Part shown: positions 12,152 through 52,190 of the stretch, in pieces | Numbering within the stretch: position 1 is the first letter of the stretch | Layout: each line of letters starts with the position of its first letter | Assembly (NCBI GenBank): GCA_028820505.1 | Contig: JAPPIT010000134.1 | Location: 1-64,000 of the forward strand | Length of the DNA: 64,000 nucleotides | Reading direction: 5' to 3' | Source of the DNA: Defluviicoccus sp. | GTDB lineage: Bacteria > Pseudomonadota > Alphaproteobacteria > MPNO01 | Translations under genes and position numbers: made by a program | Notes under the pieces: generated by a model | The model's database searches: none | Told to the model about the DNA's origin: nothing | The model's input: the letters and a program-made list of their open reading frames with translations, nothing else

Positions 12152-12168
12152 ATACCAATGAGAGGTAT
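12152..12168 (+). promoter_or_regulatory. Candidate VapB operator
   Basis: A short inverted repeat, ATACC-N7-GGTAT, overlaps an AT-rich GATATATACC stretch just upstream of vapB. Type II antitoxins usually bind such palindromes over their own promoter. Arms are only 5 bp, so this is a suggestion. Confidence 0.35.
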
Positions 12169-12187
12169 CAAGACGAGGGCTCCGGCC

Positions 12188-12436
12188 ATGACCATGACCG
12201 CCAAGCTGTTCTGGAACGGGAGATCCCAAGCCGTGCGGCTCCCCAAGGAGTTCCGCATGCCCGGCAAGGAGGTCCGGATTCGCCGCCAGGGCACGGCGGT
12301 CGTGCTCGAGCCGATCGCGGACGGCTGGGAGTGGCTCGATGACGTCGTCGGAAAGGCCGAGGATTTTTTCCCCGACGGCCGCAACCAACCGGAGATGCCG
12401 CCGCCTCGGCCGGGGCTGGACGAACTGTTCTGTTGA
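12188..12436 (+). CDS. vapB: VapB-type antitoxin (AbrB-fold)
   Basis: An 82-aa antitoxin with an N-terminal swapped-hairpin AbrB/MazE-type DNA-binding domain: TAKLFWNGRSQAVRLPKEFR, then EVRIRRQGTAVVLEP. The acidic, Pro-rich C terminus (GRNQPEMPPPRPGLDELF) would wrap the toxin. I chose the ATG at 12188 because GAGGG precedes it; the Met at 12158 lies within the presumed promoter palindrome. The next gene starts in the stop codon (TGATG), so translation is coupled. The product should repress the operon and neutralise VapC. Confidence 0.88.
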   Translation: MTMTAKLFWNGRSQAVRLPKEFRMPGKEVRIRRQGTAVVLEPIADGWEWLDDVVGKAEDFFPDGRNQPEMPPPRPGLDELFC

Positions 12437-12837
12437 TGCGCTATCTCTTCGACACCAATACCTGCATCGCCCTGATAAACGACACGTCACCGTCGCTGCT
12501 GACCCGGCTTCGCCGGCACCGGCCCGAAGAGATCGGCGTGCCCTCTCCCGTGACCTTCGAGCTCTACTTCGGCGCGTTCAAGAGCCGCGGGCCGAAGCTC
12601 AACCTGGCTGTCATTGACCGCATGGCGTTCGAAATCGTCCCCTTCGACGCGGCCGACGCGCGTGCGGCCGGCGCGATCCGCCGCGATCTGGAGGCCCGCG
12701 GGCTGCCGATCGGCCCCTATGACGTGCTGATCGCCGGCCAGGCCCGGGCGCGCGATCTGGTGCTGGTCACCGCCAACAGGCGCGAATTCGAACGGGTGGA
12801 CGGGCTGACGTTAGAGGATTGGTCCACCCCCTTGTAG
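12436..12837 (+). CDS. vapC: VapC-type PIN-domain ribonuclease toxin
   Basis: A 133-aa PIN-domain endoribonuclease. The acidic metal-binding residues can be seen in YLFDTNTCIALI (first Asp), VTFELYFGA (Glu), and PYDVLIAGQARA (Asp), followed by LVTANRREFERV. VapC toxins typically cut initiator tRNA or other structured RNAs, using Mg2+ or Mn2+. The ATG at 12436 overlaps the vapB stop by one base; the track start at 12433 is the overlapping TTG. The gene appears intact, unlike the nearby brnT. About 100 bp separate it from the selenoprotein operon. Confidence 0.92.
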   Translation: MRYLFDTNTCIALINDTSPSLLTRLRRHRPEEIGVPSPVTFELYFGAFKSRGPKLNLAVIDRMAFEIVPFDAADARAAGAIRRDLEARGLPIGPYDVLIAGQARARDLVLVTANRREFERVDGLTLEDWSTPL

Positions 12838-12934: not shown

Positions 12935-13579
12935 ATGTCCAATATCCGCATGCTCGACATCGAGGAGCTCAAGGCGAGCAAGCTCCGCCCGCTGGTCAAC
13001 AAGGCGCTGCGCCACCGCGCGCCCGACCCCGCCTTCCACGCGATGCTGGGCCACAGCCCGGACATCGCGCGCTCGATGTATCTCGCTTGGGGCGCGGTGT
13101 TCAACACCGGGCGGATCGACCACAAGCTGAAGGAGATCATCCGCGTCCAGCTCTCGCGGATGGCCGCGTGCCGATATTGAGGCAACGTCCGGTCTGCTTC
13201 GGCGAAGCAGCAGGGATTGACGGAAGAGACCATCGACGAGGGCATCGAGGCCCACGCGTCGAGCGACCGCTTCACGCCCGCGGAGAAGATCGCGCTCCGC
13301 TATTCGGAGCTGATGGGGACCGCGCCGGAGAAGGTCGACGCCGCTCTCTACGACGAGCTCGCCGAACACTATTCGGTGGAGGAGATCGTCGAGCTCGGCG
13401 CCTTCGTCGGCTTCAACGTGGGCTACCACACCTTCTTCGGGACGCTCGACTTCTACCCGATGTTCACCCCGGACGGCCGGCTGGTCGACCAGGAGGAATC
13501 GCGGCGGATCTACGGCGAGACCCCGATCTCGCTCAACAAGGGCACGATCGAGCGCGCGACGGCGGAAGCCGCCGAATGA
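12935..13579 (+). CDS. Predicted selenocysteine-containing CMD/AhpD-like protein (CxxU)
   Basis: The ORF track shows two ORFs (12878-13180 and 13217-13579), but both lie in the same frame and are separated only by TGA at 13178. Reading that TGA as selenocysteine gives one 214-aa carboxymuconolactone decarboxylase/AhpD-like protein. The join reads KEIIRVQLSRMAACRY-U-GNVRSASAKQQG. This matches the AhpD redox signature E-x11-C-x2-C with Sec as the second residue; the His usual four positions on is Arg. The helices after the TGA (LTEETIDEG, DRFTPAEKIALRYSELM, VEEIVELGAFVGF) are fully conserved-looking and align with the next gene, so the downstream half is under coding constraint. A SECIS-like hairpin follows the TGA. 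Start ATG 12935 has GAGGG upstream. CMD/AhpD proteins act as peroxidases, disulfide reductases or decarboxylases; CxxU would favour a redox role. The alternative is a recent Cys (TGC/TGT) to TGA nonsense mutation. Confidence 0.75.
13178..13217 (+). promoter_or_regulatory. TGA (Sec) codon and candidate bacterial SECIS hairpin
   Basis: The in-frame TGA at 13178-13180 is followed by CTGCTTC-GGC-GAAGCAG (13194-13210), a perfect 7-bp stem with a 3-nt loop starting with G. The loop begins after 20 intervening nucleotides. A lower stem GTCC/GGAT (13187-13190 with 13214-13217) forms below a 3x3 internal loop. As I recall the bacterial SECIS criteria (loop 3-14 nt, G in its first two positions, 16-37 nt from the UGA), all are met. 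Confidence 0.72.
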
Positions 13580-14127
13580 GCGGCGCGCGCGCGACTTTGC
13601 CGCCGGTCCCCCGCGCGCAGATCGACGATCCCGAGCTCCGGGCGCTGATCGCGCGCTCGGAGGAGACCGGCGTCGGGGACTCGCGTTTCGTCCGGCTGAT
13701 GGCACACGTGCCGGGCTATGCCGAGGCGCTGCACGATGCGCTCGACCGCTCGCTGATGGAAGGCGAGGTCGACCACGGGCTCAAGGAGATCGTGCGCATC
13801 CAGCTCGCGCGCCTCGCGGGCGATCCCTACTTCGCCGGCTTCCGGTCGAAGCGCGCGCTGGAAGACGGGCTTACCGAGGAACGGATCGAGGCGGGCTGCG
13901 GCGACTTCGAGACCGACGACCGCTTCACGCCGGCCGAGAAATGGGCGCTCCGATACGGCTGGCTGATGTACCGCGCGCCGGAGAAGGTCGACAAGACGTT
14001 CTACGACGAAGGCAAGACGCATTACTCCGAAGCCCAGATCGTCGAGCTGGGCGCCTTCATCGCCTTCCATTACGGCATGCAGATTTTCTTGGGCACACTG
14101 GACCTGCCCGCTGAAGAAGGTGGCTGA
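13576..14127 (+). CDS. CMD/AhpD-like paralogue lacking the redox pair
   Basis: A 183-aa homologue of the preceding selenoprotein. The segment HGLKEIVRIQLARLAGDPYF aligns without gaps to the selenoprotein's HKLKEIIRVQLSRMAACRYU, placing Asp opposite Cys and Phe opposite Sec. Downstream GLTEERIEAG and DRFTPAEKWALRYGWLM also match. It keeps the E-x11 part of the signature but cannot use a Cys/Sec couple. Its ATG overlaps the previous stop (ATGA), arguing for coupled, near-stoichiometric synthesis. CMD proteins oligomerise, so a mixed complex of an active and a structural subunit is plausible; this is inference. The gene overlaps the Mo-hydroxylase start by 8 nt. Confidence 0.85.
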   Translation: MSGARATLPPVPRAQIDDPELRALIARSEETGVGDSRFVRLMAHVPGYAEALHDALDRSLMEGEVDHGLKEIVRIQLARLAGDPYFAGFRSKRALEDGLTEERIEAGCGDFETDDRFTPAEKWALRYGWLMYRAPEKVDKTFYDEGKTHYSEAQIVELGAFIAFHYGMQIFLGTLDLPAEEGG

Positions 14128-16429
14128 CACGCGGATCGAGGATCCGCCGCTCCTGCGCGGGCAGGCGCGCTTCGTCGACGACATCCACCTGCCGGGAACC
14201 CTGCACGCGGCGTTCGTCCGCAGCCCGGTCGCTCGTGCGTCGATTTCGGGGATCGAAAAGCGCGCGGCGGAGGCGGCGCCGGGCGTCCATACCGTCTGGA
14301 CGCTCGACGATCTCCGTCCCCATCTCGCGGCCGAACGCCTCGTTGTCGGCCTGCCGAGCCCGGCCTACCGCCAGCAGCGCGACCGCCCGTTGCTGGCCGA
14401 CGGCGAGGTCGTCCATGTCGGCGAGGCGGTGGTGGTGGTCGTCGCCGAATCGCGCTATACGGCGGAGGACGCGGCGGCGCTGGTCGAGGTGGCCTACGAG
14501 CCGTTGCCCGCCGTCGCCGACTGCCGCGATGCGCTGGCGCCGGGCGCGCCGACGGTCCATCGCGGCGCCGACCGCAACCTGCTCGCCGAGCTGACCATGG
14601 CGTTCGGCGATGTCGAGGCCGCCTTCGCCGGGGCCGACCGCGTGTTCGCCGCGAACCTTTCGGTCCATCGCGGCGGCGGGCATTCGATCGAGGGGCGCGG
14701 CGCGCTCGCCCGCCACGACCCGGTCGACGACCTGCTCACGCTTTGGAGCTCGACCCAGACCCCGCATGCCGGGCGCAACCTGATCGCGCGCATGCTGGCT
14801 CGCGAGACGCGGCGCGTCCGCTTGATCGCGCCCTCGGTCGGCGGCGGGTTCGGGCCCAAGCTGGTCACCTACCCCGAGGAGGTCGCCGTCGCGCTCGCCG
14901 CCCTCCTGCTCGGCCGACCGGTCAAGTGGATCGAGGACCGGCGCGAGCATTTCGTGGCCAGCACCCAGGAGCGCGACCAGCACTGGGAGGTCGAGGCCGC
15001 GTTCGATGCCGACGGAACGATCCGGGGCGTGCGCGGGACGATGGTGCACGACCACGGCGCCTATACCGCGCGCGGCGCGAACCTGCCCTACGAGTCCGCG
15101 CTCACCGTCACGCTGCCCTACGACGTCCCGGCCTACCGGCTGATCGCCCGCGCGGCGCTGACCAACAAGGTGCCGGTCACTCCGGTCCGGGGCGCCGGCC
15201 ACCCGCAGGCGGTGTTCGCCATGGAACGCCTGCTGGACAAGGCGGCGGAGGGGCTCGGCATCGACCGGGTGGCGATCCGCGAACGCAACCTGATCGGCCC
15301 CGGGCGCATGCCGTGCACCCGTCCGCTGGAGAGCCGGGGCGGGCGCAAGGTGGTGCTCGACTCAGGCGATTATCCTGGCTGCATGCGGGCCGCGCTGGAT
15401 GCCGCGGACTGGGACGGGTTCGCGATCCGGCGACGGGAGGCCGGGGCGCGAGGCCGGGCGCTCGGCATCGGACTTGCCAACTTCGTCAAGGGAACCGGGC
15501 GCGGGCCGTTCGAATCCGCTTCCGTCGCCATCGACCCGTCGGGAACGGTGTCGGTCGCCTCCGGCGCCGCCGCGATGGGGCAGGGGATCGAGACCATGCT
15601 CGCCGACATCGTCGCCAGGGCGCTCGGCTGCGACCGCGAACTCGTGCACGTGACGGCGGGCGACACGGCAGCGGTCGCGCTCGGCATCGGCGGGTTCAAC
15701 AGCCGCCAGGCGGTGACCGCCGGGAGCTCGGCCTACAACGCGGCGCGCAAGGTCCGCGACAAGGCGCTTGCCGTCGCCGCCCGTCATCTTGAGGCGGCGG
15801 AAGAGGACCTGGAGATCGCGGGCGGCGAAGTCCGGGTACGCGGCGCGCCGGAACTTTGCGTGGGTCTCGGCCGGCTCGCCGAGACGGTGGCAGGCACGCC
15901 GGGGGTGACCCTGCCGGAGGGGATCGCGCCCGGGCTCGCGGCGGAAGAGAACACCGTGCTCGACGACATGCCGTTCGCCAACGGCACCGCCGTCGCCGAG
16001 ATCGAGATCGACCGCGAGACCGGATCCGCGGCGCTTACCCGGCTGGTCGTCGCGCATGACTGCGGACGCATCGTCAACCCCGCGATCGTCGAGGGCCAGA
16101 TCGTCGGCGGCGCGGCGCATGCCGTCGGCAACGCGCTTTACGAATGGATGGGCTTCGACGGCGATGCGCAGCCGCTCACCACCACGCTGGCCGACTATCT
16201 GCTGCCGGGCTCGCTCGACGTGCCGAGGATCGATACGGTGCACATGGAATCGCCCAGCCCGCTCAACCCGATCGGGGTCAAGGGGGTGGGCGAGTGCGGC
16301 ACCGTGCCGACCGCCGCCGCCATCGCCGCGGCGATCGAGGACGCGCTCGGCCTCCCCGGCGGCACGATAGACCGGACGCCGCTTTCCCCGGCCGACATCG
16401 GGACGCTCGCGCATGACCATACGCTTTGA
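14120..16429 (+). CDS. Xanthine dehydrogenase-family molybdopterin-binding (large) subunit
   Basis: A 769-aa catalytic subunit of the xanthine oxidase/CO dehydrogenase-like family. The N-terminal a/b hammerhead domain starts at LRGQARFVDDIHLPGTLHAA. The molybdopterin-binding part includes VGGGFGPKLVTYPEE, FVKGTGRGPFES and GVGECGTVP, with the catalytic-type Glu at about residue 725. Where form II CO-dehydrogenase-like enzymes read AYRGAGR, this protein has TPVRGAGHPQA, so the substrate is not CO and is unknown. No 2Fe-2S or FAD subunit gene is adjacent, which is unusual. The GTG start at 14120 sits inside the end of the CMD paralogue and the XRE gene starts inside its own end, so these genes form one operon. 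Confidence 0.92.
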   Translation: MADTRIEDPPLLRGQARFVDDIHLPGTLHAAFVRSPVARASISGIEKRAAEAAPGVHTVWTLDDLRPHLAAERLVVGLPSPAYRQQRDRPLLADGEVVHVGEAVVVVVAESRYTAEDAAALVEVAYEPLPAVADCRDALAPGAPTVHRGADRNLLAELTMAFGDVEAAFAGADRVFAANLSVHRGGGHSIEGRGALARHDPVDDLLTLWSSTQTPHAGRNLIARMLARETRRVRLIAPSVGGGFGPKLVTYPEEVAVALAALLLGRPVKWIEDRREHFVASTQERDQHWEVEAAFDADGTIRGVRGTMVHDHGAYTARGANLPYESALTVTLPYDVPAYRLIARAALTNKVPVTPVRGAGHPQAVFAMERLLDKAAEGLGIDRVAIRERNLIGPGRMPCTRPLESRGGRKVVLDSGDYPGCMRAALDAADWDGFAIRRREAGARGRALGIGLANFVKGTGRGPFESASVAIDPSGTVSVASGAAAMGQGIETMLADIVARALGCDRELVHVTAGDTAAVALGIGGFNSRQAVTAGSSAYNAARKVRDKALAVAARHLEAAEEDLEIAGGEVRVRGAPELCVGLGRLAETVAGTPGVTLPEGIAPGLAAEENTVLDDMPFANGTAVAEIEIDRETGSAALTRLVVAHDCGRIVNPAIVEGQIVGGAAHAVGNALYEWMGFDGDAQPLTTTLADYLLPGSLDVPRIDTVHMESPSPLNPIGVKGVGECGTVPTAAAIAAAIEDALGLPGGTIDRTPLSPADIGTLAHDHTL

Positions 16430-52005: not shown

Positions 52006-52039
52006 GCCGCCGCCGGTCGAAAGAACGGAGCGGACGACG

Positions 52040-52190
52040 CCGCGCCGGCCGTCCCGCCATGCATGTCCTCTGCGGCCTGCAACACGCAGGTGGGCGCCGT
52101 ATGCCACGGCCACGACCGCGGCAGGAACAGCTCCCGAGAGGACTGTATTGGCCCCAGGGACAAATGGCTTCGCGCACCGCGCAGCGCCGC
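52040..52190 (-). ncRNA. ssrS: Predicted 6S RNA
   Basis: Between zapA and ygfA, the classic location of 6S RNA, the minus strand folds into one long rod. From outside in: GCGC/GCGC, GCC/GGC, GTCCC/GGGAC, GCCA/TGGC, an internal loop, GTCCTCT/AGAGGAC, CGG/CCG, CCTGC/GCAGG, GTGG/CCAC and CCGT/ACGG closing GGCAT. Such a rod with a central bubble mimics an open promoter and binds RNA polymerase. Pairing spans 52042-52175. The 5' end near 52190 is inferred from the promoter; the 3' end is approximate. I did not recognise the primary sequence. Confidence 0.62.

Follow-up and report, generated by a model that had tools for sequence, protein, structure and literature searches.

Relation to known selenoproteins and SECIS elements

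CMD-like selenoproteins with a CxxU motif have been known since 2005 and appear in current catalogues (PMC1088965, PMC2398784, PMC13188914). In a published model of the bacterial SECIS element, an upper stem of 4–16 bp is capped by a loop of 3–9 nt with a G in one of the first two loop positions, the loop lies 16–37 nt from the UGA, and the minimum free energy is at most −7.5 kcal/mol (PMC13188914). We analysed a 64,000-nt stretch of DNA (the window), which is contig C131 of a 5.49-Mb genome; the nearest named relatives were Defluviicoccus metagenome-assembled genomes (MAGs), with 97% protein identity. A gene of the window (12935–13579, + strand) contained one in-frame TGA (13178–13180), and its product, 214 aa long if this TGA is read through, scored 39.9 bits against PF02627 (carboxymuconolactone decarboxylase/AhpD-like; cut-off 23), a match that makes its fold clear.

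This product had the same PF02627 domain and the same Sec position in CxxU as the CMD-like selenoproteins (PMC1088965, PMC13188914) and AhpD-like 2 (PMC2398784). The subfamily to which it belongs scored far below the cut-off of every NCBIfam model; the best match, NF053654 (GroundWater_YciW (seleno)protein), gave 66 bits against a cut-off of 310, and membership was rejected. AhpD-type proteins carry a His after the motif, whereas the subfamily described here has an Arg (CxxU-xxx-R). It was also always accompanied by a Sec-less partner gene, and no Cys orthologue of the Sec gene was found; the published CMD-like set may include it. The CMD-like CxxU type of selenoprotein is thus known already, and the new details are that no Cys orthologue was found and that the Sec-less partner is obligate, overlapping and once fused.

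An in-frame TGA at a redox motif

The TGA at 13178–13180 (+ strand) occupied codon 82, the second Cys position of a CxxC motif (C79-R-Y-U82), where a Cys homologue has CEFC. Codon 79 (TGC, 13169–13171, + strand), encoding the resolving Cys of this CRYU motif, was an invariant column in alignment A1. Homologues were fetched with query patterns avoiding the Sec segment, and TGA was found at the Sec codon in 47/47 of the resulting loci, as well as in all further whole-genome copies, which came from one alphaproteobacterial order. A draw of 399 Pseudomonadota genomes gave no further copy outside the source genome itself at 1e-18.

Under the standard code the open reading frame ends at 13180, as it would in a pseudogene or in a protein truncated at the TGA with only a remnant frame downstream. 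Such decay is hardly credible here, as the frame was uninterrupted and conserved before the TGA as well as after it, up to the C terminus, and all homologues, from several phyla, had TGA at the same codon and never TAA, TAG or a frameshift.

Predicted structure downstream of the TGA

An earlier note on the window had described a perfect 7-bp stem with a 3-nt loop beginning with G downstream of the TGA. This stem-loop (13194–13210, + strand) was recovered by folding and by comparative evidence, CTGCTTC (13194–13200) pairing with GAAGCAG (13204–13210) around the apical loop GGC (13201–13203, + strand). The stem had been placed 20 nt after the TGA; it begins at 13 nt, and the loop is what begins at 20 nt. 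The predicted fold of 13178–13220 (43 nt) was this hairpin, with −13.8 kcal/mol, or −7.6 kcal/mol for the upper hairpin alone. Both energies, the 7-bp stem, the 3-nt loop and the 20-nt spacing were within the limits of the bacterial model, and the G in both first positions of the loop matched it too, GGC being invariant in 34 distinct sequences. When the window was searched with Rfam, no SECIS was matched; the only match was a 6S RNA at 52033–52190 (− strand).

With the SECIS of the E. coli fdhF type, the hairpin shared its place within the coding sequence, immediately 3′ of the UGA, and a small loop with an early G. The upper stem of the E. coli fdhF element has a bulged U, whereas here the stem was perfect and carried the 3-nt GGC loop; a bulged U was found neither in the stem of this gene nor in the consensus. 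As the stem lacks a bulged U like that of E. coli fdhF, recognition probably rests on the loop.

A lower stem, GTCC/GGAT (13187–13190 with 13214–13217; 13187–13217 overall, + strand), had been claimed as well. It was predicted in this sequence but was not conserved, since its two middle pairs were unpaired in 18/68 cells and the consensus fold of the homologues lacked it; it is probably non-functional as such.

Comparison with shuffled controls, which the earlier note had proposed, did not reveal stability above chance: although the hairpin was the predicted fold, 38/200 dinucleotide shuffles folded equally well (z −0.80). As thermodynamic z-scores fail to separate the hairpin from shuffles, they were left out as evidence. 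The probability of the hairpin was 0.98 for 13178–13222 but 0.06, the hairpin being outcompeted, when the folded segment comprised 60 nt before the TGA and 120 nt starting at it; other folds compete with it in some longer contexts. When codons were resampled synonymously at local usage, with the protein unchanged, a SECIS-type hairpin of this stability had P ~0.001 (~0.1%), and shuffling the gene's own synonymous codons gave an equally stable one at P ~0.02. The hairpin used codons that are rare here (TCT, 0/88 Ser; GCT, 7/292 Ala). The evidence from conservation is far stronger than either of these codon-null P values.

Conservation of the hairpin and its codons

Removal of sequences at least 90% identical left a non-redundant set of 39 genes. 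Every TGA-containing homologue had the hairpin, with at most one mismatch; such a stem mismatch occurred in 2/39 non-redundant homologues (L040 and L043). Its 11-nt core, CTTCGGCGAAG (13197–13207, + strand; columns 20–30 of alignment A2), was invariant letter for letter in 34 distinct sequences. Among 78 conserved degenerate codons of the 39 genes, zero synonymous change was seen only at codons 88–91 (GCT TCG GCG AAG); codon entropy in the remaining ones averaged 1.38 bits and was never below 0.68, and GC3 elsewhere in these genes ranged from 0.23 to 0.95. Fixation was confined to 88–91, as codons 83–86 just upstream and codons 94–95 varied synonymously.

The outer pair 18–32, which joins position 3 of codon 87 to position 2 of codon 92, covaried (U-A in 18 sequences, U-G in 10 and C-G in 6) and was never broken. 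It was the single covarying pair, and the other six of the seven stem pairs varied little or not at all; the inner four gave no covariation signal because they are invariant. With one covarying pair, the case leans on synonymous invariance rather than on covariation.

If the hairpin were incidental, the segment GNVRSASAK would be fixed by protein function and its GC-rich sequence would fold by chance. Amino acids 83–91 were indeed nearly invariant in the Sec set, and the folding energy lay inside the shuffle range. Protein constraint, however, leaves synonymous sites free, yet codons 88–91 were fixed over the whole GC3 range given above, and no close homologue was found that has the same protein segment with other codons for 88–91. 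Together with the recoding null and with the loss of ASAK from Cys homologues and the partner (below), this makes an incidental hairpin very improbable.

The same 11-nt core was shared by MAGs (L017–L063) labelled Alphaproteobacteria, Nitrospinota, SAR324 and Acidimicrobiia, labels that may be wrong. This suggests horizontal transfer of the Sec gene and its partner as a pair.

Homologues without the TGA and other TGA genes

A hairpin missing from other TGA-containing homologues, or equally stable in Cys homologues, had been named in advance as evidence against a SECIS. Neither was observed: in addition to the conservation described above, no comparable hairpin was present in 10 Cys homologues, of which 3 were close (CEFC/CEYC-GNQRS) and 7 more distant. 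It was also absent from 23 Sec-less paralogue segments, and the adjacent paralogue lacked it, as had been judged by eye. The Cys homologues and paralogues also diverge in protein sequence, so this control lends support but does not settle the matter.

Residues ASAK (88–91) were kept only among TGA-containing homologues and not in Cys homologues or the partner. As this retention coincides with the RNA element, the RNA may be the main, stronger constraint on these residues. In this refined form the proposed double constraint on the segment holds, the amino-acid constraint not being fully separable from that of the RNA.

Two further TGA-containing AhpD-like genes were seen. In another genome (G027), a related gene with the motif CNLU had its own hairpin (TTGCTCT and AGAGCAA around GGC), which differed from that of the window in having an independent stem and agreed with it in stem length (7 bp), GGC loop and spacing. 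A second gene in the source genome itself (G000; C146:3829–4143, L079, − strand), with the motif CPFU, had a hairpin of CGCTGC and GCAGCG around CGGGA, with the loop 17 nt from the TGA, and is probably another selenoprotein gene.

Selenocysteine-decoding machinery

The complete machinery was present in the source genome: selA and selB were adjacent on contig C102, which also carried tRNA-Sec(UCA), and selD was on contig C56. In the closely searched alphaproteobacterial order, the Sec gene was found in 18/24 genomes; selB was present in all 18 of these, and none of the 4 selB-lacking genomes had the Sec gene. At L043/L106 the Sec gene adjoined selA-selB in divergent orientation, and at several other loci sel genes lay on the same contig as the Sec gene, within ~10 kb.

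A reassigned code, in which TGA is decoded as Cys or Trp, was also considered, and Cys at this codon would complete a canonical CxxC. It is extremely improbable, as TGA also served as the true stop of both the Sec gene (13577–13579, + strand) and the partner (14125–14127), the Sec pathway was complete, and a putative SECIS stood at the proper position.

The SECIS-like reading of the earlier note is supported by this machinery and by the comparative evidence, and the hairpin very probably serves a genuine selenoprotein gene, with Sec at residue 82, as its bacterial SECIS element. As the ribosome nears the UGA at 13178–13180, SelB with Sec-tRNA(Sec) and GTP would bind the GGC-capped mRNA stem-loop and deliver Sec at residue 82 of the CMD/AhpD-like protein, and the product would carry the CxxU redox pair C79/U82.

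A Sec-less partner gene

Directly downstream was a Sec-less CMD paralogue of 183 aa (13576–14127, + strand), whose ATG overlapped the Sec gene's stop codon (ATGA, 13576–13579). At the motif it lacked both Cys and Sec, and it scored 22.3 bits against PF02627, just under the cut-off of 23. Such a partner followed directly in 44/46 Sec copies with room for it. The exceptions were a SAR324 MAG (L047:4001–5281), in which the Sec protein and the partner were fused in one chain, and a tandem duplication (L058:3992–5902), in which two Sec copies flanked one partner gene.

The overlap of the partner's start with the stop makes coupling likely, and the hairpin might accordingly be read as another kind of mRNA signal, for instance one acting on the partner gene through pausing or coupling. 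Such a role is highly implausible, as the hairpin lay ~370 nt upstream of the overlap, was spaced from the TGA as a SECIS would be, and matched the SECIS model.

A MazE-like antitoxin and PIN-domain toxin pair (PF04014, PF01850) lay directly upstream of the Sec gene, at 12158–12837. Downstream, a gene for a molybdopterin-binding aldehyde oxidase/xanthine dehydrogenase subunit (14120–16429) began with a GTG overlapping the end of the partner; a gene of this type was found in that position and on that strand only at Defluviicoccus loci. Apart from the partner, the neighbours varied by lineage and included aminotransferase III, FAA hydrolase, SDR, MFS, creatininase, CoA transferase and the MoCo oxidase subunit. 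Because they differ among lineages, no substrate was inferred.

Possible function and implications

The Sec and Sec-less proteins may act together as a hetero-oligomeric thiol/selenol oxidoreductase, a reading that is less firm than SelB binding and Sec insertion. The debrominase Bmp8 (PDB 6OHI) has a CMD domain by sequence, with one Cys aligning with U82 and another with C79; it is distant (profile E 5e-11) and Cys-based, and its reaction may differ. On the strength of this distant likeness, selenol-dependent reductive dehalogenation might be offered as an example of what the enzyme does. The wider picture, a CMD selenoenzyme in which Sec is irreplaceable by Cys, Sec and Sec-less subunits are obligate to each other, and the RNA dictates residues 88–91, is speculative and on balance unlikely.

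The TGA is near certain as a Sec codon, and a standard-code reading would truncate the Sec gene and its homologues. The hairpin would be an unusually clean example in which synonymous codons of a coding region are held fixed by an RNA signal. Together these genes point to a two-gene selenoenzyme, as yet uncharacterised, that occurs mostly in metagenome-assembled genomes and for which no Cys orthologue was found.
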